This document shows, piece after piece, positions 26,297-40,640 of a DNA stretch of 51,715 nt. Source of the DNA: Sphaerotilus natans (lineage in GTDB: Bacteria > Pseudomonadota > Gammaproteobacteria > Burkholderiales > Burkholderiaceae_C); assembly GCF_900156335.1 (NCBI RefSeq), contig NZ_FTMZ01000030.1, positions 1 to 51,715 of the forward strand. Direction: 5' to 3'. Within the stretch, counting starts at the first letter, position 1, and each line of letters opens with the position of its first letter. The notes below the pieces were generated by a model. The model was not told where the DNA came from. It saw only the letters and a program-made list of their open reading frames with translations, and made no database searches. Position numbers and translations under genes: made by a program.

Positions 26297-28834
26297 ATGG
26301 TCAGCAGCCTGCACGGGGTCTCGGCCGTGATGCAGCTGGGCGTGGCGGCCGTCGCGGTGCTGGCGGGCACGCTGCTGCAGCTCCAGCAGCCGCGCCTGCT
26401 GGCGCCGCCCGAGCGCCAGGCCCTGCTGGCGGCCGCGCTGCTGCTCCTGCTGGCCTGGGGGGGCGGGCAGACCCGGTGGATCTGGCGGGTGTGCAGCCGC
26501 TGGCCGCAGAGGCTCGGCGTCATCGCGCTGGTGCCGGCCGCGCTGCTGCTGACCGATCTGCGGGCCGAGGCCGGCCTGCGCGACCGGCTCGATCCGGCGC
26601 TGCAGGACCGGCTGGTGCAGGTCGAGGGCGTGATCGTCGGCCTGCCGGTCTGGCGCGAGGGCGCCTGGCGGGGCCAGATCGCGGTGGAGCGTGCCGGCTG
26701 GCCCGGCACCTTGAGCGGCGCGCATGCGGCGGATGCGCCCGAGCCGGCGCGGCTGGTGCTGCCGCGCCGGCTGCAGGTCTTCTGGGGCGAGAGCGGCCTG
26801 TCCGGACCGCCGCCTCGTGCCGGGGCGCCACGCGCCGGCCAGCGCTGGCGACTGGCGCTGAGACTGCGTCCGGTCGAGGCGCCGGCACCGCTGCATGGGC
26901 CGGACCTGGCGCTGCGTGCGCTCGAGGAGGGTCTGGGCGGCCAGGGCCGGGTGGTGCAGCGCAGCGGCGTCGCGGCCGACCGGCCGGTGCTGCTGGGCGA
27001 GACCGGCCAGGCCCGCATCGACCGCTGGCGCCAGGACCGGCGCGAGCATCTGTTCGCGGTGCTGGGCGAGCGGCCGGCGGCCGGGGTGATCGCCGGTCTG
27101 AGCCTGGGCGACCAGAGCGCGATCGAGCGCGAGGACTGGGCGCTGTTCCGCCTGGCCGGCCTGAGCCACCTGATGGCGATCAGCGGCCTGCATGTGACGA
27201 TGTTCGCCTGGCTGGCCGGCGGGCTGATCGCGCTGCTGTGGCGGCACGGGCCCTGGCCCGGGCTGATGCTGAGGTGTCCGGCGCCGCGTGCGGCCCGGCT
27301 GGGCGGGGTGCTGGCGGCGCTCGGCTACGCGCTGCTGTCGGGCTGGGGCGTGCCGGCGCAGCGCACCGTGCTGATGCTGGCCACGGTGGCACTGCTGCGC
27401 GAAGGCGCGCGCGACTGGCCGATGCCGCGCCTGCTGGCGCTGGTGGCGGCGGTGGTGGCGCTGGCCGATCCCTGGGCCTTGCTGCAGCCGGGCTTCTGGC
27501 TGTCCTTTGTCGCGGTGGCGCTGCTGATCGCCTCGGAGCCGCCTGGCGCGCGCATGCGAACGAGGCCGGCGCAGCCGCTGGGGGGGGCGTGGCTGCGCGA
27601 GTCGCTGCGCGCCCTGCTGCGCAGCCAGTGGGTGGCCACGCTCGGGCTGGCGCCGTGGACCTTGCTGTTCTTCCAGCAGATCGCGCTGGTCGGGCTGCCG
27701 GCCAATCTGGTGGCGATTCCGCTGATCACGCTGGTGGTGACGCCGCTGGCGCTGCTGGGCCTGCTGCTCGAGCCGCTGTGGCTGCCGGCGGTCTGGGCGA
27801 TCGACCTGCTGCGCCTGATGCTGGCGCCGCTGCTGGCCTGGCCGGGTGCGGCCTGGAGTCCGGCGGCGGCGCCAGTCTGGGCGCAGGCGCTGGGTCTGGC
27901 TGCGGCGGTGCTGCTGACGCTGCCCTGGCCCTGGGCGCTGCGTCTGCTGGCGGTGCCGATGCTGCTGCCGCTGCTGTGGCCGGCGCTGGTGCGGCCGCCA
28001 CCCGGGCATTTCGAGCTGATCGTGCCCGATGTCGGCCAGGGCCATGCGGTGCTGGTGCGCACCGCGGGCCACGATCTGCTGCACGACACCGGACCGGCCT
28101 ACGGCCGCCAGGGCGAGGCCGGCGACGCCGGCGAGCGGGTGCTGCTGCCGCTGCTGCGCCGCCTGGGCGTGCGCGAGCTCGACCATCTGGTGCTGAGCCA
28201 CCGCGACAGCGACCACAGCGGCGGCGCCGCCTCGCTGCTGGCGGCGCTGCCGGTGCGGCTGATGCACAGCTCGCTCGAGCCCGGCCATGCGCTGCGTGAC
28301 CGCCTGGCCGGCGTGCCGCACCAGCCTTGCCAGGCCGGCCTGCGCTGGGCGCGCGATGGCGTCGAGTTCGAGTTCCTGCATCCGACGGCGGCGGCCCTGG
28401 CCCGCACCGGGCCGGAGCGTCCCGGCTCGAACGCGCTGTCGTGCGTGCTGCGGGTGGCCGGCGGTGGTCGGGTCGCGCTGCTGACCGGCGACATCGGCCA
28501 GGCGCAGGAACTGATGCTGGTGCTGCGCCAGTCAGGGCGCCTGCGGGCCGACGTGATGCAGGTGCCGCACCACGGAAGTGCATCTTCATCGAGCTTGCAA
28601 TTTGTCAATTCGGTGACTCCGGGCTGGGCTATCGTGCAGGCCGGGAGGTTCAATCCGCATGGTCATCCGGCGGTGGCGGTCGTGCAGCGTCTTCAATCAC
28701 GCGGTACAGAAGTGATCCACGTGAACCGCTGTGGTGCATGGCACTGGTACGGTGCGAATGCATCGGCGTGGTGCGAGCAGGACGATCGCATCCGCTACTG
28801 GCATCTGCCACTGTCTCCGGACGACAGACCGTGA
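26297..28834 (+). CDS. comEC: DNA internalisation/competence protein ComEC (Rec2)
   Basis: ComEC is the inner-membrane channel for single-stranded DNA during natural transformation. The 845-residue protein has an N-terminal OB-like DUF4131 part (about 60-210) and the Competence domain with multiple helices (about 235-545), including LSHLMAISGLHVTMFAWLAGG. A C-terminal metallo-beta-lactamase-like domain follows (about 570-820), with DVGQGHAVLV and LSHRDSDHSGG. The ATG has a strong GGGGAGGG site. The 3' end (from about 28570) is noticeably less GC-rich than the rest. Presence of comEC together with pilus parts would indicate competence, but only comEC is seen here. Confidence 0.93.
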   Translation: MVSSLHGVSAVMQLGVAAVAVLAGTLLQLQQPRLLAPPERQALLAAALLLLLAWGGGQTRWIWRVCSRWPQRLGVIALVPAALLLTDLRAEAGLRDRLDPALQDRLVQVEGVIVGLPVWREGAWRGQIAVERAGWPGTLSGAHAADAPEPARLVLPRRLQVFWGESGLSGPPPRAGAPRAGQRWRLALRLRPVEAPAPLHGPDLALRALEEGLGGQGRVVQRSGVAADRPVLLGETGQARIDRWRQDRREHLFAVLGERPAAGVIAGLSLGDQSAIEREDWALFRLAGLSHLMAISGLHVTMFAWLAGGLIALLWRHGPWPGLMLRCPAPRAARLGGVLAALGYALLSGWGVPAQRTVLMLATVALLREGARDWPMPRLLALVAAVVALADPWALLQPGFWLSFVAVALLIASEPPGARMRTRPAQPLGGAWLRESLRALLRSQWVATLGLAPWTLLFFQQIALVGLPANLVAIPLITLVVTPLALLGLLLEPLWLPAVWAIDLLRLMLAPLLAWPGAAWSPAAAPVWAQALGLAAAVLLTLPWPWALRLLAVPMLLPLLWPALVRPPPGHFELIVPDVGQGHAVLVRTAGHDLLHDTGPAYGRQGEAGDAGERVLLPLLRRLGVRELDHLVLSHRDSDHSGGAASLLAALPVRLMHSSLEPGHALRDRLAGVPHQPCQAGLRWARDGVEFEFLHPTAAALARTGPERPGSNALSCVLRVAGGGRVALLTGDIGQAQELMLVLRQSGRLRADVMQVPHHGSASSSSLQFVNSVTPGWAIVQAGRFNPHGHPAVAVVQRLQSRGTEVIHVNRCGAWHWYGANASAWCEQDDRIRYWHLPLSPDDRP

Positions 28835-28887
28835 CTGGCCCTGAACTTGCTAAACCCTGTGCACGCTCAACCACCACGACGAGAACA

Positions 28888-30318
28888 ATGATGTTCGATG
28901 AAATGAATGCGAGCGGTCCGGTCGTCCGGGACCACTACCGTACCTATGAGCGCTGGCTGCAGCAGCAGCCCGGAGAGGTCATGCAGGCCCGCCGGGAGGA
29001 GGCGGAGATGATCTTCCGCCGTGTCGGCATCACCTTCGCCGTCTATGGCGACAAGGATTCCGGCGAAGGCACCGAGCGGCTGATCCCCTTCGACCTGATC
29101 CCGCGCGTGATTCCCGCCCACGAATGGCGCGAGCTGGAAGCCGGCCTGCGCCAGCGGGTCACCGCGCTGAACCGCTTCATCCACGACGTTTACCACGGCC
29201 AGGAGATCGTCAAGGCCGGCATCGTGCCGCCGGAGCAGATCCTGGCCAATGCGCAGTACCGCCCGGAAATGATCGGCGTGGACGTGCCCGGCGGCATCTA
29301 CTCGCACATCGCCGGCATCGACATCGTGCGCGCGGCCAACCCCGACGGCTCGGGCACCTACTACGTGCTGGAGGACAACCTGCGCGTGCCCTCGGGCGTG
29401 AGCTACATGCTCGAGAACCGCAAGATGATGATGCGGCTCTTTCCCGAGCTGTTCGCGCAGCACCGCATCGCGCCGGTCGCGCACTACCCCGATCTGCTGC
29501 TGGAGACGCTGCGCTCGGTGGCGCCGGGCGGCATCAACGATCCGACGGTGGTGGTGCTGACGCCGGGCATGTACAACTCGGCCTACTTCGAGCACGCCTT
29601 CCTGGCGCAGCAGATGGGCGTCGAGCTGGTCGAGGGCCAGGACCTGTTCGTCAAGGACAACTTCGTCTTCATGCGCACCACGCGCGGCCCGAAGCGCGTC
29701 GACGTGATCTACCGCCGCCTCGACGACGACTTCCTCGATCCGCTGGCCTTCCGGCCGGACTCGACGCTGGGCTGCCCCGGCCTGCTGGCGGCCTACCGCG
29801 CCGGCAACGTGACGCTCTCCAACGCCATCGGCACGGGCGTGGCCGACGACAAGTCGATCTACGCCTACGTGCCGAAGATGGTCGAGTTCTACCTCGGCGA
29901 GAAGCCGATCCTGAACAACGTCCCGACCTGGCAGTGCCGCGAGACCGAGGACTTCAAGTACGTGCTCGACCACCTGCCCGAGCTGGTCGTCAAGGAGGTC
30001 CACGGCGCCGGCGGCTACGGCATGCTGGTCGGCCCGGCCGCGAGCAAGGACGAGATCGCGAAGTTCCGCGAGCACCTGATCGCCAATCCGACCAACTACA
30101 TCGCGCAGCCGACGCTGAGCCTGTCGACCTGCCCGACCTTCGTGGAGAAGGGCATCGCGCCGCGTCACATCGACCTGCGTCCCTTCGTGCTGTCCGGGCG
30201 CAACGAGGTGCAGATGGTCTGCGGTGGCCTGACCCGCGTGGCGCTGAAGGAGGGCTCGCTGGTGGTCAACTCCTCGCAGGGCGGCGGCACCAAGGACACC
30301 TGGGTGCTCGAGGACTGA
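28888..30318 (+). CDS. Circularly permuted ATP-grasp protein (copy 1)
   Basis: This cytoplasmic enzyme of the CP_ATPgrasp family (formerly DUF404/DUF407) is predicted to join a carboxylate to an amine with ATP. It has 476 residues. Key blocks are intact: VLEDNLRVPSGVSYMLENR near 155, and HIDLRPFVLSGRN with the final SQGGGTKDTWVLED. The glycine-rich loop VVKEVHGAGGYGM contains Lys369. It starts 53 bp after comEC; the ATG at 28891 is an equal alternative. It is followed 54 bp later by a separate alpha-E gene, the usual partner. The substrate is unknown. Confidence 0.9.
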   Translation: MMFDEMNASGPVVRDHYRTYERWLQQQPGEVMQARREEAEMIFRRVGITFAVYGDKDSGEGTERLIPFDLIPRVIPAHEWRELEAGLRQRVTALNRFIHDVYHGQEIVKAGIVPPEQILANAQYRPEMIGVDVPGGIYSHIAGIDIVRAANPDGSGTYYVLEDNLRVPSGVSYMLENRKMMMRLFPELFAQHRIAPVAHYPDLLLETLRSVAPGGINDPTVVVLTPGMYNSAYFEHAFLAQQMGVELVEGQDLFVKDNFVFMRTTRGPKRVDVIYRRLDDDFLDPLAFRPDSTLGCPGLLAAYRAGNVTLSNAIGTGVADDKSIYAYVPKMVEFYLGEKPILNNVPTWQCRETEDFKYVLDHLPELVVKEVHGAGGYGMLVGPAASKDEIAKFREHLIANPTNYIAQPTLSLSTCPTFVEKGIAPRHIDLRPFVLSGRNEVQMVCGGLTRVALKEGSLVVNSSQGGGTKDTWVLED

Positions 30319-30372
30319 GCCGGGCGTGACGCCCGCACAACGACAACGAAAGACAAGGTCAAGGATTTCCGC

Positions 30373-31326
30373 ATGCTGTCTCGAACCGCCGACCACCTGT
30401 TCTGGATGTCGCGCTACATGGAGCGCGCCGAGAACACCGCCCGGATGCTCGACGTCAACTACCAGACCGCGCTGCTGCCGCAGTCGGCGGCTGTCTCCGA
30501 GCTGGGCTGGCGCGGCCTGCTGAGCATTTCCGAGCTCAGCGGCGACTTCGCGCGCCGCTATGGCGACGTGACCGCCGCCACCGTCATGACCTACATGGTC
30601 CGCGACGAGCGCAACCCGTCGTCGATCTGGAGCTGCCTGCGCGCGGCGCGCGAGAACGCCCGCGCGGTGCGCGGCGCGCTGACCACCGAGGTCTGGGAGA
30701 CCACCAACCAGACCTGGCTGGAGTTCAACCGCCTGCTGCGCGACGGCCTGCTCGAGCGCGACCCCAGCGCGCTGTTCGAGTGGGTGAAGTTCCGCTCGCA
30801 CCTGTCGCGCGGCGTGCAGGTCGGCACGATGCTGCAGGACGAGGCGCTGCACTTCGTGCGCATCGGCACCTTCCTGGAGCGCGCCGACAACACCGCGCGG
30901 CTGCTCGACGTCAAGTTCCATGCGGTCGAGAGCGACTTCTACGGCGCCGCCGACGACCGCGACCAGGAGTACGACTTCTACCACTGGGCGGCGATCCTGC
31001 GTTCGGTCTCCGGCTTCGAGGTCTACCGCAAGGTCTACCGCAACGTCATCCAGTCGGACAAGGTCGCCGAGCTGCTGATCCTGCGCCCGGACATGCCGCG
31101 CTCGCTGGCCGCCTGCACGCAGGAGGTGGAGGTCAACCTGAAGCTGGTGGCCAACGACCACTCGTCGGAGACGCTGCGCCGCGCGGGTCGGCTGCACGCC
31201 GATCTGGAGTACGGCCGCATCGACGAGATCCTCGCCACCGGCCTGCATGCCTACCTGACGCAGTTCCTCGACCGCGTCAACGAGCTGGGCGCGGGCATCA
31301 GCCGCGACTTCCTCGTCGCGGTCTGA
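30373..31326 (+). CDS. Alpha-E domain protein (DUF403)
   Basis: This all-helical protein of 317 residues begins with the family signature LFWMSRYMERAENTARML (residues 9-26), which recurs in altered form near 170-185 (GTFLERADNTARLL). Alpha-E proteins almost always sit beside circularly permuted ATP-grasp genes and are thought to form part of the same ligase complex; their biochemical role is not established. Its gene lies 54 bp after copy 1 of the ATP-grasp gene and has the usual N-terminus MLSRTA. Confidence 0.9.
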   Translation: MLSRTADHLFWMSRYMERAENTARMLDVNYQTALLPQSAAVSELGWRGLLSISELSGDFARRYGDVTAATVMTYMVRDERNPSSIWSCLRAARENARAVRGALTTEVWETTNQTWLEFNRLLRDGLLERDPSALFEWVKFRSHLSRGVQVGTMLQDEALHFVRIGTFLERADNTARLLDVKFHAVESDFYGAADDRDQEYDFYHWAAILRSVSGFEVYRKVYRNVIQSDKVAELLILRPDMPRSLAACTQEVEVNLKLVANDHSSETLRRAGRLHADLEYGRIDEILATGLHAYLTQFLDRVNELGAGISRDFLVAV

Positions 31327-31461
31327 CGGACGGACTGATTCCTGCCGCGGACCGGACCCGTGCCGGCCCCGCTCGCCCCGGCGAACCGTCGTGCACCGTG
31401 CGGTCATGCACGGTGACTACAGTCGCCGGGGTCGTCTTTTCATTTCAAGAAAGATCACGCC
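31327..31461 (+). promoter_or_regulatory. Gap with a perfect inverted repeat before the transglutaminase-DUF2126 gene
   Basis: CACCGTGC (31394-31401) and GCACGGTG (31408-31415) form an 8-bp inverted repeat with a 6-base spacer. A TACAGT box follows immediately (31418-31423) and could be a -10 element. This may be an internal promoter with an operator inside the ATP-grasp cluster. Confidence 0.4.
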
Positions 31462-34400
31462 GTGTCCATCCACGTCGCTCTCCATCACGTCACCCACTAC
31501 CGGTATGACCGGCCGGTGACGCTCTCGCCCCAGGTGGTGCGCCTGCGCCCGGCGCCGCACTGCCGCACGCCGGTGCTGTCGTACTCGCTGCGCGTCGAGC
31601 CCGAGACGCATTTCATCAACTGGCAGCAGGATCCGTTCTCGAACTATCTCGCCCGCCTGGTCTTCCCGGAGAAGACCACGCAGTTCAAGGTCACCATCGA
31701 TCTGGTGGCCGAGATGGCGGTCTACAACCCCTTCGACTTCTTCCTCGAGCCGGGCGCCGAGAACTTCCCCTTCGTCTACGAGGACGGCCTGAAGCAGGAA
31801 CTGGCCCCGTACCTGGAGCCGGCGCCGGCCACGCCCGCGCTGCAGGCCTTCCTCGACACCATCGACCGCAGCGAGGTGCGCACGATCGACTTCCTGGTCG
31901 GGCTGAACCAGCGCCTGCAGAACGAGATCCGCTACACCATCCGCCTCGAGCCGGGCGTGCAGACGCCGGAGGAGACGCTGACCAAGGCCTCGGGCTCCTG
32001 TCGCGACACCGGCTGGCTGCTGGTGGAGACGCTGCGCCACATGGGCCTGGCCGCGCGCTTCGTCTCCGGCTACCTGATCCAGCTGAAGTCCGACGTCGTC
32101 GCCCTGGATGGCCCCAGCGGCACCGAGGTCGACTTCACCGACCTGCATGCCTGGTGCGAGGTCTATCTGCCGGGCGCGGGCTGGATCGGGCTGGACCCGA
32201 CCTCGGGCCTGCTGGCCGGCGAGGGCCACATCCCGCTGGCCTGCTCGCCGCAGCCCTCCAGCGCGGCGCCGATCACCGGCGCGGTCGACGAGTGCGAGGT
32301 CGAGTTCGCGCACGAGATGAAGATCACGCGCATCTGGGAATCCCCGCGCGTGACCAAGCCCTACAGCGAGGACCAGTGGTCGGCGGTGCTGGCGCTGGGC
32401 GAGCAGGTCGATGCCGAGCTGGTCGCGGGCGACGTGCGCCTGACGATGGGCGGCGAGCCGACCTTCGTCTCGGTCGACGACCGCGATGGCGCCGAGTGGA
32501 ACACCGACGCGCTCGGCCCCACGAAGCGGCTCTACGCCACCGAGCTGGTACAGCGCCTGCGCGACGAGTACGGCCAGGGCGGCTTCCTGCACTTCGGCCA
32601 GGGCAAGTGGTACCCGGGCGAGCAGCTGCCGCGCTGGGCGCTGTCGGCCTACTGGCGCGCCGACGGCCAGCCGTGCTGGCACGACATGTCGCTGTTCGCC
32701 GACGAGCGCGACAACCACCAGTACACCTCGGCCGATGCCAAGCGTTTCATGCTGGGCCTGACCGCGCGCCTGGGCCTGACCGACCAGTTCGTGCAGACCG
32801 GCTATGAGGACACCTGGTACTACCTGTGGCGCGAGCGCCGCCTGCCGGTCAACGTCGACCCGTTCGACTCGCGGCTGGACGACGAGCTCGAGCGCATGCG
32901 CCTGCGCCGTGTCTTCGACCAGGGCCTGGAGCAGGAGATCGGCTACGTGCTGCCGATCAAGCCGGCCGAGGGCCCGGCGCTGGGCGGCCCGCGCTGGGTC
33001 ACCGGCCCGTGGTTCTTCCGCGACGAGCGCATGTACCTGGTGCCCGGCGACTCGCCGATGGGCTACCGCCTGCCGCTGGACTCGCTGCCCTGGGTGGCGA
33101 AGAAGGACTATCCCTTCCTGATCGAGCAGGATCCGTTCGCGCCGCGCGACGCGCTGCCGGCCGCCCATGTGGTGCGCCAGCAGTACGCCGCGCATGTGGC
33201 CGGCGGCGGCTTCGCCGAAGGCGGCACGGTGGCGCTGCAGGGCGGCACCTTCGACGGCGACTACGGCTTCGGCGACATCTACGGCAATGCCGACGGCAGC
33301 ACCGCCACCGGCAGCACAGCCCGTCATCCCCGCGAAGGCGGGGACCCACGCGGTCAGACGGCGCTGGATGGCGGCGTGGCCGGTGCGGCGGGCGTGGATT
33401 CCCGCCTGCGCGGCAATGACGGGAATGGGACCGGCGCGACCGGCCGCGCCGGCACCCTGTCGCCGCTCGACGGCCTGAGCGCCGAGGAACTGGCGCGCCA
33501 TCCGCAGCGCTTCGAGTCGGCGCACTGGATCACCCGCACCGCGCTGTGCGTCGAGGTGCGCGACCCGCGCCGCGCCAACGGCCCGAAGGCCGAGAAGGTC
33601 GGCAGCCCGTCGGGCGTGATGTATGTCTTCATGCCGCCGCTGGCGCGCCTGGAGGACTACCTCGAACTGCTCGCCGCCATCGAGGCCACGGCGGCCGCGC
33701 AGGGCGTGAAGGTCGTGCTGGAAGGCTACCCGCCGCCGCGCGATCCGCGCCTGACGCTGCTGCAGGTCACGCCCGACCCCGGCGTCATCGAGGTCAACAT
33801 CCACCCGGCGAAGAACTGGCGCCAGCTGGTCCAGCACACCGAGTTCCTCTACGACGCGGCCTGGAAGACGCGCCTGTCGACCGAGAAGTTCATGCTCGAC
33901 GGCCGCCACACCGGCACCGGCGGGGGCAACCACATGGTCATGGGCGGCGCCACGCCGGCGGACTCGCCCTTCCTGCGCCGGCCGGACCTGCTGGCCTCGC
34001 TCCTGGTCTACTGGCACAACCATCCCTCGCTGTCCTACCTGTTCTCGGGCCTGTTCATCGGCCCGACCAGCCAGGCCCCGCGGGTGGACGAGGCGCGCAA
34101 CGACCAGGTCTACGAGCTGGAGATCGCGCTGCGCGAGATCGAGCGCAACAAGGGTGTCTACGGCGCGGACATGCCGCCCTGGCTGGTCGACCGCACGCTG
34201 CGCAACGTGCTGATCGACGTCACCGGCAACACGCACCGCAGCGAGTTCTGCATCGACAAGCTGTATTCGCCTGATTCCAGCACCGGCCGGCTGGGTCTGC
34301 TGGAGCTGCGCGCCTTCGAGATGCCGCCGCACGCGAAGATGTCGATCGTGCAGCAGCTGCTGCTGCGCACGCTGATCGCGCGCTTCTGGAACGAGCCCTA

Positions 34401-35094
34401 CCGCGCGCCGCTGGTGCGCTGGGGCACCGAGCTGCATGACCGCTTCCTGCTGCCGAGCTTCGTGCGCATGGACTTCGAGGACGTGATGGAGGACCTGCAG
34501 CGCGCCGGCTATGGCTTCGACGCCGCCTGGTTCGCGCCGCATTTCGAGTTCCGCTTCCCGAAGGTCGGCGAGGTCTCGGCCAAGGGCGTGCATCTGACGC
34601 TGCGCAGCGCGCTCGAGCCCTGGCACGTCATGGGCGAGGAAGGCGCGATCGGCGGCACGGTGCGCTATGTGGACTCGTCGCTGGAGCGCATCGAGGTGCA
34701 TGTCAGCGGTCTGGTCGAGCGCCGCCATGTGGTGACGGTCAACGGCGTGCCGCTGCCGCTGCAGCCCACCGGCCGTGTCGGCGAGTATGTGGCGGGCGTG
34801 CGCTACCGCGCCTGGCAGCCGCCCTCGGCGCTGCACCCGACCATCGGCGTGCACGCGCCGCTGACCTTCGATCTGGTCGACACCTGGAACGAGCGTTCGC
34901 TGGGCGGCTGCCAGTACCACGTCGCGCATCCGGGCGGGCGCAACCACGAGACCTTCCCGGTGAACTCCTACGAGGCCGAGAGCCGCCGCCTGGCGCGCTT
35001 CTTCGCGATGGGTCATACCCCGGGTCGCATGGTCGTCGGCGAGACCAAGCGCAGCCTGGAGTTCCCGTTCACGCTGGACCTGCGCCGGGGCTGA
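31462..35094 (+). CDS. Transglutaminase-like protein fused to DUF2126 amidoligase domain
   Basis: This 1210-residue two-part protein starts with GTG at 31462. The N-terminal half has the bacterial transglutaminase N domain (residues 1-90) and a papain-like core with triad Cys180 (SGSCRDTGW), His229 (DLHAWCEV) and Asp245 (GLDPTSG). The C-terminal half (about 330-1190) is DUF2126, a predicted glutamine-synthetase-like amide ligase. Its blocks include LTMGGEPTFVS, TPDPGVIEVNIHPAKNW and GGGNHMVMGG. Residues 620-654 are encoded by a palindromic intergenic-type repeat inserted in frame. It falls in a loop region full of Gly/Thr, so both domains probably still fold. Such fusions lie beside CP-ATP-grasp and alpha-E genes. 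Confidence 0.92.
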   Translation: MSIHVALHHVTHYRYDRPVTLSPQVVRLRPAPHCRTPVLSYSLRVEPETHFINWQQDPFSNYLARLVFPEKTTQFKVTIDLVAEMAVYNPFDFFLEPGAENFPFVYEDGLKQELAPYLEPAPATPALQAFLDTIDRSEVRTIDFLVGLNQRLQNEIRYTIRLEPGVQTPEETLTKASGSCRDTGWLLVETLRHMGLAARFVSGYLIQLKSDVVALDGPSGTEVDFTDLHAWCEVYLPGAGWIGLDPTSGLLAGEGHIPLACSPQPSSAAPITGAVDECEVEFAHEMKITRIWESPRVTKPYSEDQWSAVLALGEQVDAELVAGDVRLTMGGEPTFVSVDDRDGAEWNTDALGPTKRLYATELVQRLRDEYGQGGFLHFGQGKWYPGEQLPRWALSAYWRADGQPCWHDMSLFADERDNHQYTSADAKRFMLGLTARLGLTDQFVQTGYEDTWYYLWRERRLPVNVDPFDSRLDDELERMRLRRVFDQGLEQEIGYVLPIKPAEGPALGGPRWVTGPWFFRDERMYLVPGDSPMGYRLPLDSLPWVAKKDYPFLIEQDPFAPRDALPAAHVVRQQYAAHVAGGGFAEGGTVALQGGTFDGDYGFGDIYGNADGSTATGSTARHPREGGDPRGQTALDGGVAGAAGVDSRLRGNDGNGTGATGRAGTLSPLDGLSAEELARHPQRFESAHWITRTALCVEVRDPRRANGPKAEKVGSPSGVMYVFMPPLARLEDYLELLAAIEATAAAQGVKVVLEGYPPPRDPRLTLLQVTPDPGVIEVNIHPAKNWRQLVQHTEFLYDAAWKTRLSTEKFMLDGRHTGTGGGNHMVMGGATPADSPFLRRPDLLASLLVYWHNHPSLSYLFSGLFIGPTSQAPRVDEARNDQVYELEIALREIERNKGVYGADMPPWLVDRTLRNVLIDVTGNTHRSEFCIDKLYSPDSSTGRLGLLELRAFEMPPHAKMSIVQQLLLRTLIARFWNEPYRAPLVRWGTELHDRFLLPSFVRMDFEDVMEDLQRAGYGFDAAWFAPHFEFRFPKVGEVSAKGVHLTLRSALEPWHVMGEEGAIGGTVRYVDSSLERIEVHVSGLVERRHVVTVNGVPLPLQPTGRVGEYVAGVRYRAWQPPSALHPTIGVHAPLTFDLVDTWNERSLGGCQYHVAHPGGRNHETFPVNSYEAESRRLARFFAMGHTPGRMVVGETKRSLEFPFTLDLRRG
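33320..33423. repeat. REP-like palindromic element inserted in frame
   Basis: Two 31-bp arms, 33320-33350 and 33393-33423, are inverted copies of each other with a few mismatches. The core reads CGTCATCCCCGCGAAGG on one side and TGGATTCCCGCCTGCGCGG on the other. This is the well-known type whose unit encodes 'RHPREGGDP' in one direction and 'VPAFAGMT' in the other, similar to dRS3-like repeats of Neisseria and repeats in many beta- and gammaproteobacteria. It sits inside the DUF2126 gene and adds about 35 codons without shifting the frame. It is normally intergenic, so the position is unusual. Confidence 0.85.
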
Positions 35095-35200
35095 TCGCTG
35101 CCGCGACGGCTGATCCGGAACTGCAACATCGGTACGCGTCGGGACACGATTGCGGCTCTCCCGGAGCCGCAAGTCCCGCGCTCCGGTGCATGATGCGCCG

Positions 35201-37795
35201 ATGCAATCGAGTCTTCTTCCCGACGAGACGCCCGGGGCGGCCCTTCTGGCCGCCGCGTCGGCGCTGGCCGGAACGACCGGACACCATGACGAGCTGCGCG
35301 GGGTGCTCGTCGGATCCGGATCCCCGGCGACCCCCTCCGGCCTGGCGCCGGTGTGGGAACGCTTCTTCGAGGCCAACGGCGTGGCCGGCTGGCTGGACCT
35401 GTCCGCACGCCTGTCGCGGGTGCAGCGCCGGGTGCGCGAGGATGGTGCGACCTACAACGTCTATGCCGAAGGCGGCGAGAGCGCACGCTCCTGGCCGCTG
35501 GAGCTGCTGCCGCTGCTGATCACGCCCGACGAGTGGCGTCACATCGAGGCCGGCGTGCGCCAGCGCGCGCGCCTGCTCGACGCGACGCTTGCCGATCTCT
35601 ACGGCCCGCAGGACCTGCTGCACGACGGCCTGCTGCCGCCCTCGCTGGTGCTGGCGCATCCGCAGTACCTGAGGCCGATGCACGGCGTGCGCCCGGCCGG
35701 CAACCGCTGGCTGCATGTGGTGGCCTTCGACCTGGCGCGTGCGCCCGACGGCAGCTGGCGGGTGGTCGGCCAGCGCACCCAGTCGCCCTCGGGCCTGGGC
35801 TATCTGCTGGAGAACCGGCTGATCATCGGCCAGCAGTTTCCCGAGGCCTTCCGCGCGCTGAAAGTGCAACGGGTGGCCTCGGCCTTCCGCACGATGATCG
35901 AGGGCCTGCTGCGCGACAGCCCGGCCGGCGCGCACTCGCGCATCGCGCTGCTGACGCCGGGGCCGCGCAACGAGACCTACTTCGAGCATGTCTTCCTGGC
36001 GCGCTATCTGGGCATCACGCTGGTGGAGGGCTCGGACCTGACGGTGCGCGGCAACCGGCTTTATCTCAAGACGCTCGGCGGGCTGGAGCAGGTGCATGTG
36101 CTGCTGCGCCGGGTCGACGACGAGTGGCTCGATCCGCTGGAGCTGCGCCCGGACTCGGCGCTGGGCGTGCCGGGCCTGGTGCAGGCGGTGCGCGCCGGCG
36201 AGCTGGTGCTGGCCAATGCGCCCGGCGCCGGCGTGCTGGAAAGCCCCGGCCTGAGCGCCTTCTGGCCCGGCATCGCCGACCGGCTGCTGGGCGAGCCCCT
36301 GAAGCTGCCGGCGCACACCAGCTGGTGGTGCGGCGAGGCCAGCGTCTGGGAGGCGACCCGCCCGCGGCTGCGCGACTACCTGATCGTGCCGACCTTCCCG
36401 GCCGGCGCGGTGACGCGCAGCTTCGCGCCGGTGATGACCAGCGAGCTCTCGCCGCAGGCGCTGCGCGAGTGGGAGGCACGCATCGACGCCGACCGCGCCG
36501 CGCACACGCTGGTGATGCCGGCGCGTCCCTCCGAGCTGCCGGTCTGGCATGGCGGACGGCTCGAGCCGCGCCCGGTGGTGGTGCGGGTCTACGCGATGTC
36601 GGACGGCGCCGGTGGCTGGCAGGTGCTGCCCGGCGGCCTGACCCGGGTGGCCGGGCGGCGCAGCGGCGTCGATGCCTACCTGTCGATGCAGTCCGGCTCG
36701 GCCAGCACCGACACCTGGGTGCTGACCGACGGCGAGGTCGACGCCACCACGCTGCTGCCGCGTCCGCTCGATGCTGCCGACCTGGCCGGCTGGCGACGGG
36801 TGGTCACCAGCCGGGCGGCGGAAAATCTCTTCTGGCTCGGCCGCTACACCGAGCGGGCCGAGAACTCGGTGCGGCTGGCGCGGCTGGCGCTGGAGGCGCT
36901 GCCCGCGGGCAGCGCGCCGGTGCTGCAGGTGCTGCACCGGCTGCTGGTCGGGCAGGGCATGATCGGCGCGGCGGTACCGCTGCCGGTGCAGGGCTCCTCG
37001 CAGGCCGCAAGGGTGTTCGAGCGGGCGCTGATCCATTCGCTCGGCGACACCCGCGGCAGCTTCAGCGTGGCCTACAACCTGCAGGCGCTGCGCCAGTGCG
37101 CCGAGGCGCTGCGCGAGCGGCTCTCGACCGAGCACTGGGGTCTGATCAAGCACCTGAGCGAGCTGTTCTCTCGCCAGCTCGCCGGCATCGGCGCGCGCGA
37201 GGGCCACGAGCCGCTCAGCGACGTGCTGGGCGTGCTCAACCAGGCCGCGCTGCATCTGGCGGCCATCACCGGCGCGCAGACCGACCGCATGACCCGCGAC
37301 GACGGCTGGCGCCTGCTCAGCGTCGCGCGCCAGATCGAGCGGCTCGACATGCTGGCGCAGGCGCTGGAGGCCGGCTTCGAGGCCGGGCTGCACGATCTGG
37401 ACGACGGCTTCGCGCTGCTGCTGGGCCTGTTCGACTCGACCATCACCTACCGCGCGCAGTTCCAGGCCCGCCGCGAGGTGCCGCCGCTGCTGCATCTGCT
37501 GGTGCAGGACACCGACAACCCGCGCTCGCTGGCCTGGGTGGCGCGCACGCTGCGCGAGCGGCTGCGCAAGCTCGCCCGCCACGATCCGGACTGGGCCGCG
37601 GCGGTCACGCTGACCCTGCCGCGCCCGTCGGACTGGTCGCTCGAGACGCTCAGCACCCGCGACGCCCACGGCCGCCACAGCGCCCTGATGAGCGCGCTGC
37701 AGGAATGCCACCAGGCCGCGCTGGGCGTCTCCGGCGAGATCAGCCGGCATCTGTTTTCCCATGTCGGCCCGGCCGACCGCACCGTCTGGCAATGA
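35201..37795 (+). CDS. Circularly permuted ATP-grasp (degenerate copy 2) fused to alpha-E domain
   Basis: The 864 residues join an ATP-grasp-like part (about 60-530) to an alpha-E domain (about 540-850) that opens with AENLFWLGRYTERAENSVRL. The structural blocks align with copy 1 (SGLGYLLENRLIIGQQFPE, TPGPRNETYFEHVFLARYLG, STDTWVL). The nucleotide-binding ones do not. The glycine loop KEVHGAGGYGM is replaced by VPTFPAGAVTRSF (about 396-408), and the EDN before 'PSG' is replaced by QRTQ. It is likely a catalytically dead partner or one with changed chemistry. The start at 35201 (MQSSLLPDE) is the most conservative; upstream starts at 35150 would add 17 basic residues. Confidence 0.88.
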   Translation: MQSSLLPDETPGAALLAAASALAGTTGHHDELRGVLVGSGSPATPSGLAPVWERFFEANGVAGWLDLSARLSRVQRRVREDGATYNVYAEGGESARSWPLELLPLLITPDEWRHIEAGVRQRARLLDATLADLYGPQDLLHDGLLPPSLVLAHPQYLRPMHGVRPAGNRWLHVVAFDLARAPDGSWRVVGQRTQSPSGLGYLLENRLIIGQQFPEAFRALKVQRVASAFRTMIEGLLRDSPAGAHSRIALLTPGPRNETYFEHVFLARYLGITLVEGSDLTVRGNRLYLKTLGGLEQVHVLLRRVDDEWLDPLELRPDSALGVPGLVQAVRAGELVLANAPGAGVLESPGLSAFWPGIADRLLGEPLKLPAHTSWWCGEASVWEATRPRLRDYLIVPTFPAGAVTRSFAPVMTSELSPQALREWEARIDADRAAHTLVMPARPSELPVWHGGRLEPRPVVVRVYAMSDGAGGWQVLPGGLTRVAGRRSGVDAYLSMQSGSASTDTWVLTDGEVDATTLLPRPLDAADLAGWRRVVTSRAAENLFWLGRYTERAENSVRLARLALEALPAGSAPVLQVLHRLLVGQGMIGAAVPLPVQGSSQAARVFERALIHSLGDTRGSFSVAYNLQALRQCAEALRERLSTEHWGLIKHLSELFSRQLAGIGAREGHEPLSDVLGVLNQAALHLAAITGAQTDRMTRDDGWRLLSVARQIERLDMLAQALEAGFEAGLHDLDDGFALLLGLFDSTITYRAQFQARREVPPLLHLLVQDTDNPRSLAWVARTLRERLRKLARHDPDWAAAVTLTLPRPSDWSLETLSTRDAHGRHSALMSALQECHQAALGVSGEISRHLFSHVGPADRTVWQ

Positions 37796-38808
37796 CGCTT
37801 CCCGAGATCCAAGAGCCTTCCGAGCCCCTCGAAGTGGTCGATCCGCAGGCGCCGCGCCGCCTGCGGGTGCTGCACGAGACCTGCTACGACTACGACGCGC
37901 CGGTCGAGCTGGCCCATCACCTGGGCATGCTGCGCCCGCGCCACACGCCGCTGCAGCAGGTGCTGGAGTGGCAGCTGACGGTCACGCCGCAGCCCGATGT
38001 CACTGCAATGGCTGCTGGCGAGGTGGTGCTGCCGGCTGGGCTGCGCGCCGGCGACGAGACGGTGCTGGTCACGCCGGGCGTGCAGCAGAGCCTCGACCCC
38101 TGGGGCAATCACCGGGTGAGCTTCTCGCATTCGCGGGTGCATGACCGGCTGGTGGTCAGCTCCAGCTTCGTCGCCGACATCGCGCCGCTGCCGCGGCTGC
38201 AGCCCGAGGCCAGTCCGGCCTGGGAGGTGGTCGCCGAGCGGCTCGACTACCGGCCCGGCGCCGGCTTCGAGCCGGCCGTGGAGTTCACGCTGGGCTCGCT
38301 GTACGCGCCGCGCGAGGCCTCGCTGGCGCGCTTCGGCGCCGAGGTCTTCCGCCCGGGCGTGCCGCTGCTGGCCGGGGCGCTGGCGATGATGCACCTGATC
38401 CATCGCCGCTTCGAGTACCGGCCGCTGGCCACCTCGGTCAACACCCGCGCGCCCGAGGCGCTGGCGCAGCGCCAGGGCGTCTGCCAGGACTTCGCCCATG
38501 TGATGATCGGCGCGATGCGCTCGCTCGGGCTGGCGGCGCGCTATGTCAGCGGCTATCTGCTGACGCAGCCGCCGCCGGGGCAGCCGCGGCTGGTCGGCGC
38601 CGATGCCTCGCATGCCTGGGTCGCGGTCTGGTGCCCGCTGCATGGCTGGGTCGCGCTCGATCCGACCAATGCGGTGCCCGCCGGCCTCGATCATGTGACG
38701 CTGGCCTGGGGCCGCGACTATGCCGACGTGGCACCGCTGCGTGGCGTGATCCGCGGCGGCGGCCGTGCGGTGCCGCGTGTCGGCGTGACGGTGATGCCGA
38801 TGGAGTGA
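37792..38808 (+). CDS. Transglutaminase-like cysteine protein (second of cluster)
   Basis: This 338-residue protein has a Bact_transglu_N domain (about 22-180) and a papain-like core with the triad Cys231 (GVCQDFAHV), His274 (ASHAWVAVW) and Asp290 (ALDPTN). No signal peptide is seen, so it should be cytoplasmic. Relatives act as, or are predicted to be, peptidases or amide transferases. The ATG overlaps the stop of the ATP-grasp/alpha-E fusion by 4 bp, so the two are made together. Confidence 0.92.
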   Translation: MTLPEIQEPSEPLEVVDPQAPRRLRVLHETCYDYDAPVELAHHLGMLRPRHTPLQQVLEWQLTVTPQPDVTAMAAGEVVLPAGLRAGDETVLVTPGVQQSLDPWGNHRVSFSHSRVHDRLVVSSSFVADIAPLPRLQPEASPAWEVVAERLDYRPGAGFEPAVEFTLGSLYAPREASLARFGAEVFRPGVPLLAGALAMMHLIHRRFEYRPLATSVNTRAPEALAQRQGVCQDFAHVMIGAMRSLGLAARYVSGYLLTQPPPGQPRLVGADASHAWVAVWCPLHGWVALDPTNAVPAGLDHVTLAWGRDYADVAPLRGVIRGGGRAVPRVGVTVMPME

Positions 38809-38869
38809 GCGCCGATGGCGTGAGCGGGCCCCGGCTCCGGGCGCGATTCTTGCGATCGTGGTGCGGATC

Positions 38870-39670
38870 GTGAAACTGAAAATCCGTCACCTGACCCGCT
38901 ACCGCTACGCCAGCCCGCTGCGCGCCGCGGTCCAGACCCTGTGCCTGACGCCCGGCTCCGGCGCCGGGCAGCAGGTCCACCACTGGTGCCTCGATGTCAG
39001 CGGCCGGCTGCAGCCGCACACCGACGCCTGGGGCAACCGCAGCCATCTGATGCACATCGAGGCCGGCGAGCGCGAGCTGCGCTGCGAGGCCTCCGGCGTG
39101 GTCGAGACGCACGGCCAGGCCTGGTCGCCGGAGCTGGCCGGGCCGGATCCTCGTGTCTATCTGGCGCCCTCGCCGCTGGCCGTGCTGGATGCAGCGATGC
39201 GCCATGATCTGCGCGAGGCCGGTCTGGACGCGCCGCGCGACGAAGACCAGGCGCTGGCGCTGGCCCGCCATGTGGCCGCACGGGTGCGCTATCGCTCCGG
39301 TGCCACCGATGCCACCACCACCGCGGCACAGGCCTGGCAGGGCGGAGCGGGCGTCTGCCAGGACCAGGCGCATGCCTTTGTCGCCGCCTGTCGCGGTCTG
39401 GGCGTTCCGGCCCGCTATGTCAGCGGCTATTTCCATGCGCCGGGCAGCGAGTCGCTGGCCAGCCATGCCTGGGCCGAGATCTGCCCCGATCCGGCCTCGC
39501 GCCGCTGGCTGGGTATCGACATCACCCATGTCGGGCTGGTCGACGCGCGTCATGTGCGGCTGGCGGTCGGCCCCGACTATGCGGCCTGCTCGCCGATCCG
39601 CGGCGTGCGCAGCGGCGGCGGGCGCGAGCGGCTGACGGTCGAGGTGGAGATCGTCGCGCTGCCGGGCTGA
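38870..39670 (+). CDS. Transglutaminase-like cysteine protein (third of cluster)
   Basis: This 266-residue protein starts with GTG at 38870, which gives the family-typical MKLKIRHLTRYRYASP; a GTG four codons upstream is the alternative. The triad is Cys163 (GVCQDQAHA), His199 (LASHAWAEI) and Asp217 (LGIDITH). The N domain is shorter than in the previous protein. Together the three transglutaminase-like proteins show different substrate pockets around similar catalytic sites, so they are probably not redundant. Confidence 0.91.
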   Translation: MKLKIRHLTRYRYASPLRAAVQTLCLTPGSGAGQQVHHWCLDVSGRLQPHTDAWGNRSHLMHIEAGERELRCEASGVVETHGQAWSPELAGPDPRVYLAPSPLAVLDAAMRHDLREAGLDAPRDEDQALALARHVAARVRYRSGATDATTTAAQAWQGGAGVCQDQAHAFVAACRGLGVPARYVSGYFHAPGSESLASHAWAEICPDPASRRWLGIDITHVGLVDARHVRLAVGPDYAACSPIRGVRSGGGRERLTVEVEIVALPG

Positions 39671-39782: not shown

Positions 39783-40640
39783 ATGTTCAAGGCCTTGCAG
39801 AAGCTGCAGAAGATGTTCGGCTCCCGTCCGGAGGACGAGCCCGACTCGCGGCTGCTTGATGGCTGGGCCCACAGCCGCGGGCATCAGCTCAAGCGGGTAC
39901 GGCGCGGCGAAGGCCGGGTGATCGAGTTCGACTGCGATGACCGGCGCGGGCGCATGGAATGGGGCCCCTCGCACCGGGCCTACATCAAGGGCCGCGAGCT
40001 GCGCATCCGCATCGACGCCGGACTGCCCGGGCAGATGGAGATGATGCTCATGTCGCGCCGTCTGGCCCAGCAGCTCGGCGGCGAGGCCTACCAGACGCTG
40101 ACCAGCGCCCACCAGACCGGCATCGATGCCGATCTGCCCGAGGAGGTGCGCTGGCTGTCGATGCTCGAGAAGGTGCCGGTCCCGTCATCGGCCGCCGGCT
40201 ATGTGCTGATGTCGTCCTCGCCGGTGCACGCGCGGCGCTGGCTGGATGGCGATCTGCTCAGCCGCGTCAGCCGGGCCTCCAACCTCTGGCTTGGCGACAC
40301 CGCGCCGCTGGTGCTGATGACGCTGCGCGGCTGCATCCACCTGCGCACTGAGGCGGGCGCGCTGGAGGAGTCGATGCTCGACGGCGCCCGTGCGCTGGCG
40401 CAGTCGGCCCTGCTGTCGGCCCGCCAGGCGCTGCTGCGCCCGGTCGACGAGCCCGATGCACCACCGCCCGCGCCGCTGCGCCCGGGCCTGTCGAGTGCGG
40501 CTGGCGGCCGGCGCATCGGCGCGATGGGGCCGCCCTCGGGCTTCGAGAATCCGTCGGTGCTGGAACTGCCGATGGACAGCGACATGATGGCGATGTCGAT
40601 GCCTGCGCCCACCCAGCCGCCGCCGACGCCGCGGCGCTGA
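39783..40640 (+). CDS. Conserved protein of unknown function following the ATP-grasp cluster
   Basis: This 285-residue soluble protein begins MFKALQKLQKMFGSR. The middle (about 30-225) alternates strands and helices and contains WGPSHRAYIKGRELRIRIDAG. The tail (230-285) is rich in Pro, Ser and Met and is probably disordered. No catalytic motif is seen. An AAGGAGG site lies about 28 bases before the ATG, too far for a normal start, and no other start is available in frame. It is on the same strand as the cluster with a gap of 112 bp, so a role in it is possible but unproven. Confidence 0.65.
   Translation: MFKALQKLQKMFGSRPEDEPDSRLLDGWAHSRGHQLKRVRRGEGRVIEFDCDDRRGRMEWGPSHRAYIKGRELRIRIDAGLPGQMEMMLMSRRLAQQLGGEAYQTLTSAHQTGIDADLPEEVRWLSMLEKVPVPSSAAGYVLMSSSPVHARRWLDGDLLSRVSRASNLWLGDTAPLVLMTLRGCIHLRTEAGALEESMLDGARALAQSALLSARQALLRPVDEPDAPPPAPLRPGLSSAAGGRRIGAMGPPSGFENPSVLELPMDSDMMAMSMPAPTQPPPTPRR

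Follow-up and report, generated by a model that had tools for sequence, protein, structure and literature searches.

What do six consecutive genes of Sphaerotilus natans make, under what conditions, and do they act without the proteasome-like protein Anbu? The question is raised by NZ_FTMZ01000030.1, one of 57 contigs of a 4.63-Mb genome that is 100% complete; "the window" below means the whole stretch analyzed, 51,715 nucleotides. A six-gene cluster at 28,888-39,670 encodes circularly permuted (CP) ATP-grasp, Alpha-E, transglutaminase-like (Tgase) and DUF2126 domains, and an earlier interpretation of the letters alone (the sequence-only reading) had proposed that it might be an Anbu-independent ligase and peptidase pathway. 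The results tentatively favor, at a little under an even chance, a nitrogen-starvation cycle of amide ligase and amidase reactions in which Anbu acts in trans.

Domains were called on the window proteins with Pfam (E ≤0.001 for the listing of the six proteins). The strong scores bear out the six genes and the domains originally named, all on one strand:

28888..30318, forward strand: gene 1, free CP-ATP-grasp (CP_ATPgrasp_2/1; PF14403 E 1.3e-168, second match 7e-158)
30373..31326, forward strand: gene 2, Alpha-E helical protein with E-R motifs (PF04168 E 2.4e-97)
31462..35094, forward strand: gene 3, Tgase-like domain fused to DUF2126, a putative GS/GCS-type amidoligase (PF08379 Bact_transglu_N, PF01841 Transglut_core, PF09899 E 0)
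about 35201..37795, forward strand: gene 4, CP-ATP-grasp (probable pseudo-ligase) fused to Alpha-E (CP_ATPgrasp_2 7e-135, Alpha-E 3e-55)
37792..38808, forward strand: gene 5, Tgase-like papain-fold enzyme (Bact_transglu_N and Transglut_core; PF01841 E 3.8e-21)
about 38876..39670, forward strand: gene 6, Tgase-like enzyme (Bact_transglu_N and Transglut_core; PF01841 E 6e-20)

The ATG at 35201 was chosen as the start of gene 4, whose open reading frame (ORF) opens with a TTG at 35150; gene 6 starts at TTG 38876 or GTG 38858, and genes 4 and 5 share 4 nt. By Pfam, a CP-ATP-grasp gene adjoins an Alpha-E gene, and their run also includes a Tgase-like gene (genes 1, 2 and 3 or 6).

In an order-level sample of 120 genomes of Burkholderiales, DUF2126 was present in 40/120, Alpha-E in 63/120 and Anbu in 59/120; every DUF2126 genome also had Alpha-E (40/40), and the ATP-grasp/Alpha-E fusions, identified from frame length, all fell inside DUF2126 genomes (21/21). 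The DUF2126 neighborhoods of the other 39 such genomes, some ending at contig ends, and further loci from the best 80 of at least 590 gene 3 relatives were used to compare layouts at 127 loci in all, the window included. The exact six-gene order occurs in the window and in one other locus, from Sphaerotilus (L103), and the first five genes keep the same order in 20/127 loci, window counted; in two of the loci (L043 and L046) Anbu follows directly after those five. This order is beyond chance, and with the co-occurrence of DUF2126 and Alpha-E it sustains the view of a linked, conserved locus of amide ligases and papain-like enzymes. Two layouts recur, an Anbu type (ATP-grasp, Alpha-E, Anbu, Tgase-DUF2126, lacking the fusion) and a fusion type (Tgase-DUF2126, fusion, Tgase, with the ATP-grasp/Alpha-E pair adjoining or apart), and additional layouts exist. 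The fusion type dominates among the best 80 relatives, and a fusion-type match was found in 87/127 loci; in a phylum-wide draw, 58/200 genomes had a fusion-sized open match, part of them to the ATP-grasp portion only. The closest named relatives of gene 3, among the matches listed, are Burkholderiales, with 83% identity over the best segment to a Sphaerotilus metagenome-assembled genome (MAG; L103) and a Burkholderiaceae MAG (L166) and 81% to Ideonella (L175). The Tgase of the gene 6 family stands in third place in Burkholderia (L144, L172, L182) and adjoins the ATP-grasp/Alpha-E pair in L037, L047, L052 and L055.

Two candidate regulatory elements lie upstream of gene 1:

28836..28851, forward strand: sigma-54 (-24/-12) box TGGCCCTGAACTTGCT, 10/12 consensus positions, ending 36 nt upstream of gene 1
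28740..28756, forward strand: NtrC-operator-like site (GCAC-N7-GTGC) whose start is 96 nt ahead of the sigma-54 box, within the 3' end of comEC

The pattern TGGCNYN5TTGCW has its single match in the window at 28836-28851 (0.35 expected). The point is where the box lies rather than that it exists, because at least one match also turns up in 30 of 100 shuffled versions of the window. Between 28600 and 41000, a search for sigma-70-like promoters gave none (0.6 expected by chance).

Across the family, the sigma-54 box is located at operon heads and is kept in relatives. Boxes were scored when GG and GC were present and at least 10/12 consensus positions matched within 200 nt upstream. Of 122 sequences surveyed, 120 yielded 476 rows, after exclusion of genes with less than 200 nt upstream or with a match starting beyond query residue 60: 145 heads that are ATP-grasp or Tgase-DUF2126 genes, 301 internal genes, 13 showing a gap of 300-600 nt, and 17 heads belonging to other genes, the last kept out of the 145-head count (one ATP-grasp site, of G049, entered twice, as L045 and L188). 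A box precedes 109/145 heads (ATP-grasp 54/66, Tgase-DUF2126 55/79) versus 12/301 internal genes; at the 11/12 level the Fisher test gave p 1.7e-43, uncorrected for relatedness. When similar upstream regions were thinned by shared 12-mers, boxes remained at 71/105 heads versus 3/127 internal genes other than ATP-grasp. Internal Tgase-DUF2126 genes had none (0/39), and random 200-nt stretches scored 3.0%. Eight of the 12 boxed internal genes are ATP-grasp genes behind another cluster gene and may own a separate promoter. Among heads of other genes, boxes were seen at fusions (3/8), Tg6 (1/1), Anbu (0/5) and Tg5 (0/3). The DUF2126/fusion module, when it heads an operon, has its own conserved predicted sigma-54 boxes, which is the point added here.

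The second element matches GCAC-N7-GTGC, which we take to be the form of an NtrC operator. Upstream of boxed heads this pattern occurs 28 times versus 0.7 in shuffles, with other spacers giving 2-8 versus about 1, and operator-like matches of at least 10/12 were found in 37/110 upstream regions versus 3.9% of shuffled ones and 11/289 internal controls. An automatic scan chose a different operator match (11/12), 270 nt upstream of the window box. In the genome, PF04552 (rpoN) and ntrC each have one match above cut-off.

Published expression data, given here from partial texts of the articles, point the same way for related clusters. In a Burkholderia cenocepacia ntrC mutant, BCAM1233-1236 changed by log2 -8.2, -9.4, -9.4 and -6.0, and these genes are listed among the common targets of sigma-54 and NtrC (PMC5491218). 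In Pseudomonas putida, PP_2685 and PP_2688 rose by log2 +4.44 and +3.99 on nitrate versus ammonium (PMC8050072), PP_2685-2687 were up 11.1-, 6.6- and 7.1-fold under nitrogen versus carbon limitation (PMC3325844), and PP_2685-2688 were attributed to NtrB/NtrC (PMC7801951). The Anbu operon is therefore already known to be under nitrogen control, with one dissenting data set taken up below.

No Anbu gene is present in the window, as had been observed, but one sits on another contig, unlinked to the cluster (G000:C29:294727-295461; E 2.8e-76 with a protein query, 51% identity). Residues T1, D17 and K32, numbered by manual count from the Thr following Met, are present in it; they are the candidate residues of Anbu in the partial text of PMC6376114. 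At its own locus the gene (L183:8129-8962) shares four bases with the end of a gene read as mutS. In the order sample, counted with one Anbu query, Anbu was found in 58/63 Alpha-E genomes versus 1/57 others, in 36/40 DUF2126 genomes and in 17/21 fusion genomes. The co-occurrence and the copy in this genome mean that the label "Anbu-independent" fails for S. natans. The four DUF2126 genomes with no match to that query (G003, G067, G103 and G111) are all of the fusion type, so an Anbu-free form is possible in other genomes; the single query may also undercount. PF00227 was rejected as a detector of Anbu: its sole match in the genome was HslV, whose neighbor is presumably HslU. This model undercounts Anbu because the genome's own copy scores 20.3 bits, below the 22.4 cut-off.

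The two ATP-grasps of the cluster differ sharply. Gene 1 matches 3n6x_A with E 1.7e-225 and holds all the columns that 41 free homologues (from 40 loci plus the window) conserve, including E162, D163, N164, R166, D320, D321, K322, D429 and N461, each at least 97% conserved; it is a probable active amide ligase, judging by these residues. In 39 fusions (the window's and 38 drawn from L103-L182 after a start and length filter, with those of L034-L072 left out), D163 is found in 7/39 and the other eight in 0/39. The E-x-N pair binds metal in ATP-grasp enzymes. Because this pair and other invariant residues are lost across all 39 fusions, the ATP-grasp half of gene 4 is probably a pseudo-ligase. 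K369, ahead of the Gly-rich stretch, is kept in 15/39, and scaffold residues including W80, R90, D100, D145, R178, R431, D470 and W472 in 39/39. The fusions group in a single clade (support 1.0) and are the more diverged: their mean identity is 0.56 versus 0.80 for free ATP-grasps at the same 14 loci. In the Alpha-E half of gene 4, R548, E551 and R552 are present in 38/38 aligned rows. The ATP-grasp half appears to be a dead copy that is retained in another role. Of the two ligase types claimed earlier, the free ATP-grasp plus DUF2126 stand, and the fused ATP-grasp, from the look of its lost residues, does not count as a second working copy.

Predicted structures were searched with Foldseek. 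The gene 4 model (pLDDT 86.9) matched 3n6x (E 6.8e-30), then glutathione synthetases, starting at E 4e-11, and, with E 4e-5 to 2e-4, glutathionylspermidine synthetase (2vpm, 2io7 and 2io8). The DUF2126 region of gene 3 covers positions 1-826 of the 826-position PF09899 profile (1357 bits), and no significant sequence relative of it was found in the PDB. Its model (pLDDT 73.9) gave nine first matches that were all GS/GCS (YbdK and glutamine synthetase types), the best with E only 0.039; the ranking fits the Pfam label "putative amidoligase" without proving it. In gene 2, R14, E17, R18, E169 and R170 are conserved in 52/52 Alpha-E rows. The Cys-His-Asp triads are intact in all three Tgases of the window, as reported at the outset, and in the families of gene 3 (Cys 79, His 78 and Asp 76 of 79 rows, the remainder being gaps) and gene 5 (each 57/57). 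That claim does not extend to the gene 6 family, in which the catalytic Cys is kept in 11/18 rows and replaced by Ser in 6 and Gly in 1.

These data can be assembled into the tentatively favored cycle as follows. Under nitrogen starvation, the box at 28836-28851 would be the point from which NtrC and sigma-54 switch the operon on. The free ATP-grasp, assisted by Alpha-E, would catalyze amide bond formation, its acceptor being a small peptide or of amine type, and the DUF2126 ligase would do likewise. Acceptors of this type are the probable ones, since small-molecule ligases have a fold like that of the ATP-grasp and the DUF2126 model tends toward GS/GCS. The three Tgase-like Cys enzymes would hydrolyze or exchange such amides, gene 3 being a synthetase and amidase in one chain, and Anbu, supplied from its separate locus, would add another Ntn hydrolase to the system. 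In gene 4, the ATP-grasp half would be non-catalytic, a scaffold or substrate-holding part bearing its own Alpha-E. The gene content, the linkage, the conserved boxes, the Anbu gene of the genome and the residue losses of gene 4 come directly from sequence; we infer which bonds are made, that gene 4 serves as a scaffold, and that the aim is to store or recycle nitrogen.

Several observations weigh against this proposal. The window box matches 10/12 positions rather than 12/12, and 36/145 heads lack a box at the 10/12 level (ATP-grasp 12/66, Tgase-DUF2126 24/79). The operator-like site at 28740..28756 is weak alone because it is located in coding sequence, that of comEC, as are some operator-like sites of other loci. 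A sigma-54 box of at least 9 is absent from the 300 nt upstream of the genome's own Anbu, and the DUF2126 model had no Foldseek match under E 0.001. In P. putida KT2440, PP_2686-2688 were induced 14.2-, 16.0- and 19.6-fold in an rpoN mutant versus 12.6-, 11.0- and 14.7-fold in the wild type (PMC7801951, Table 2, seen in partial text), and this retained induction argues against strict sigma-54 dependence in that species. The same table gives only 1.12-fold for PP_2685 (Anbu) in the wild type, evidence against its co-induction under those conditions. In assays of Anbu operon proteins, the ATP-grasp released phosphate from ATP, and no peptidase activity or specific complex was found, according to the available part of PMC6376114. 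As a separate observation, the urea transporter genes urtA-D, too, still rise under nitrogen limitation in P. putida lacking rpoN; like the retained induction of PP_2686-2688, which are also assigned to NtrC, this is unexpected of genes that sigma-54 controls (PMC7801951, same portion).

An alternative is that the ligases tag proteins, and that Anbu or the Tgases remove the tag or degrade the tagged proteins, recycling nitrogen. The co-occurrence of Alpha-E with Anbu fits this idea, as do the discussions, in the sections available, of proteolysis under nitrogen limitation (PMC7801951), of tagging itself (PMC6376114) and of a peptide-synthesis system with Anbu as its peptidase (PMC5666114). It is a serious competitor, if a less likely one. 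Against it, no conserved tag-like gene was found among ORFs of at least 300 nt, shorter ORFs lying outside the scan; an AAA+ partner is absent at the genomic level (PMC5666114); and the Anbu proteins assayed had no peptidase activity (PMC6376114), the last two points being taken from partial texts.

It is unlikely that the genes share only a promoter, with the ATP-grasp/Alpha-E/Tgase and Tgase-DUF2126/fusion/Tgase sets serving different nitrogen-scavenging pathways. The two sets do lie apart in some genomes, by about 100 kb in G025 for example, and sets that are apart or divergent can each have a box (11/12 at both genes of L045, 12/12 at the Tgase-DUF2126 of L035). However, the Tgase-DUF2126 of G025 (L042) has a box of only 9, Alpha-E accompanies DUF2126 without exception in the order sample, and the sets are joined, in differing orders, in Burkholderia, Sphaerotilus and others.

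That the cluster functions without any Anbu protein is very unlikely, since Anbu is encoded in this genome and in most DUF2126 and fusion genomes, even though the window lacks it, four DUF2126 genomes gave no match and one P. putida experiment showed no co-induction of Anbu alongside its neighbors (PMC7801951, in part).

A more specific form of the favored amide cycle can be drawn, which we regard as a long shot. The dead-ATP-grasp fusion would hold the product or acceptor and pass it via its own Alpha-E to Tgase-DUF2126, so that an isopeptide serving as a nitrogen store would be built and broken only in starvation, with Anbu mobilizing it.

Among known systems, the nearest is the CP-ATP-grasp/Alpha-E/Tgase/Anbu operon predicted by Iyer et al. 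2009, as cited in PMC5666114 and PMC6376114 (both in partial text). The ATP-grasp, Alpha-E and Tgase families are shared, Anbu is present in the genome, and the P. putida operon is induced by nitrogen limitation in the published portions noted above; the window cluster differs in lacking Anbu and in adding Tgase-DUF2126, the ATP-grasp/Alpha-E fusion and a further Tgase. It is not classed as a four-gene Anbu operon because Anbu lies on another contig. The order listed for BCAM1233-1236 (DUF404/407, DUF403, Tgase, large Tgase; PMC5491218, in part) is that of the Burkholderia loci L144, L172 and L182, a comparison by listing rather than by sequence. These three loci run on into the fusion and Tg5. 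The gene 6 counterpart is third in BCAM1233-1236, so far as that listing goes, and last in the window. Glutathionylspermidine synthetase/amidase and trypanothione synthetase share the broad fold of the gene 4 ATP-grasp model and the pairing of ligase with amidase in one system. They differ in that the amidase of the window is fused to DUF2126, not to ATP-grasp, and neither the GspS family nor the CHAP amidase gave a Pfam match at E ≤0.001 in the six window proteins. The Rlo operon of Pseudomonas (PMC12239564, available in part) likewise has an ATP-grasp, a Tgase-like protein and a peptidase in one operon, but its Tgase domain is inactive and membrane-bound and its ATP-grasp is 24% identical to RimK. 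A description of the combined cluster was not found in the open literature searched, where DUF2126 is not mentioned.

For experimenters, the predicted shared nitrogen-starvation switch tells when the product should be sought, and the dead ATP-grasp call tells which protein to skip in ligase assays. Together they turn a domain list into a testable system for Anbu and its partner genes.

Around the clusters, no extra gene was found to be widely common, and no short conserved peptide gene, whose co-occurrence the sequence-only reading had suggested checking, was seen among neighbor ORFs of at least 300 nt within 5 kb, shorter ORFs not being covered. The neighbors included comEC or its antisense frame in up to 30 loci, and the widest other ORF cluster, ABC-ATPase-like by reading, spanned 9 loci. 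Downstream of the cluster, 39783-40640 of the window encodes a 285-aa protein without a Pfam family; of the loci compared, just L103 and L166 have a counterpart. In Variovorax (L111:16338-17156, L112 and L115), an amino-acid-type solute-binding protein (PF00497) lies between the fusion and the Tgase, with weaker matches in L132, L134 and L059. An N-formylglutamate amidohydrolase (PF05013) is located between two cluster Tgase genes in L053 only (L053:12803-13555). A zinc-ribbon metallopeptidase (PF15887) occurs near Tgase-DUF2126 in eight loci (L130:8412-9656, L132, L134, L136, L137, L140, L141 and L169), on the opposite strand in 7/8. L147 has two tandem copies of the Tgase-DUF2126/fusion/Tgase module with a single ATP-grasp/Alpha-E pair between them.

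One feature within gene 3 is not part of its function:

33321..33422: pair of REP-like palindromic repeats, an in-frame insertion into a variable DUF2126 loop, with pattern matches at 33321-33347 (forward strand) and 33396-33422 (reverse strand)

The insertion is not found in the 24 relatives compared. Its pattern occurs at 85 genome sites with up to 2 mismatches and at 0 in the reversed control, and eight perfect matches are crowded on one strand within about 10 kb of another contig (G000 contig C26:3134-12738).

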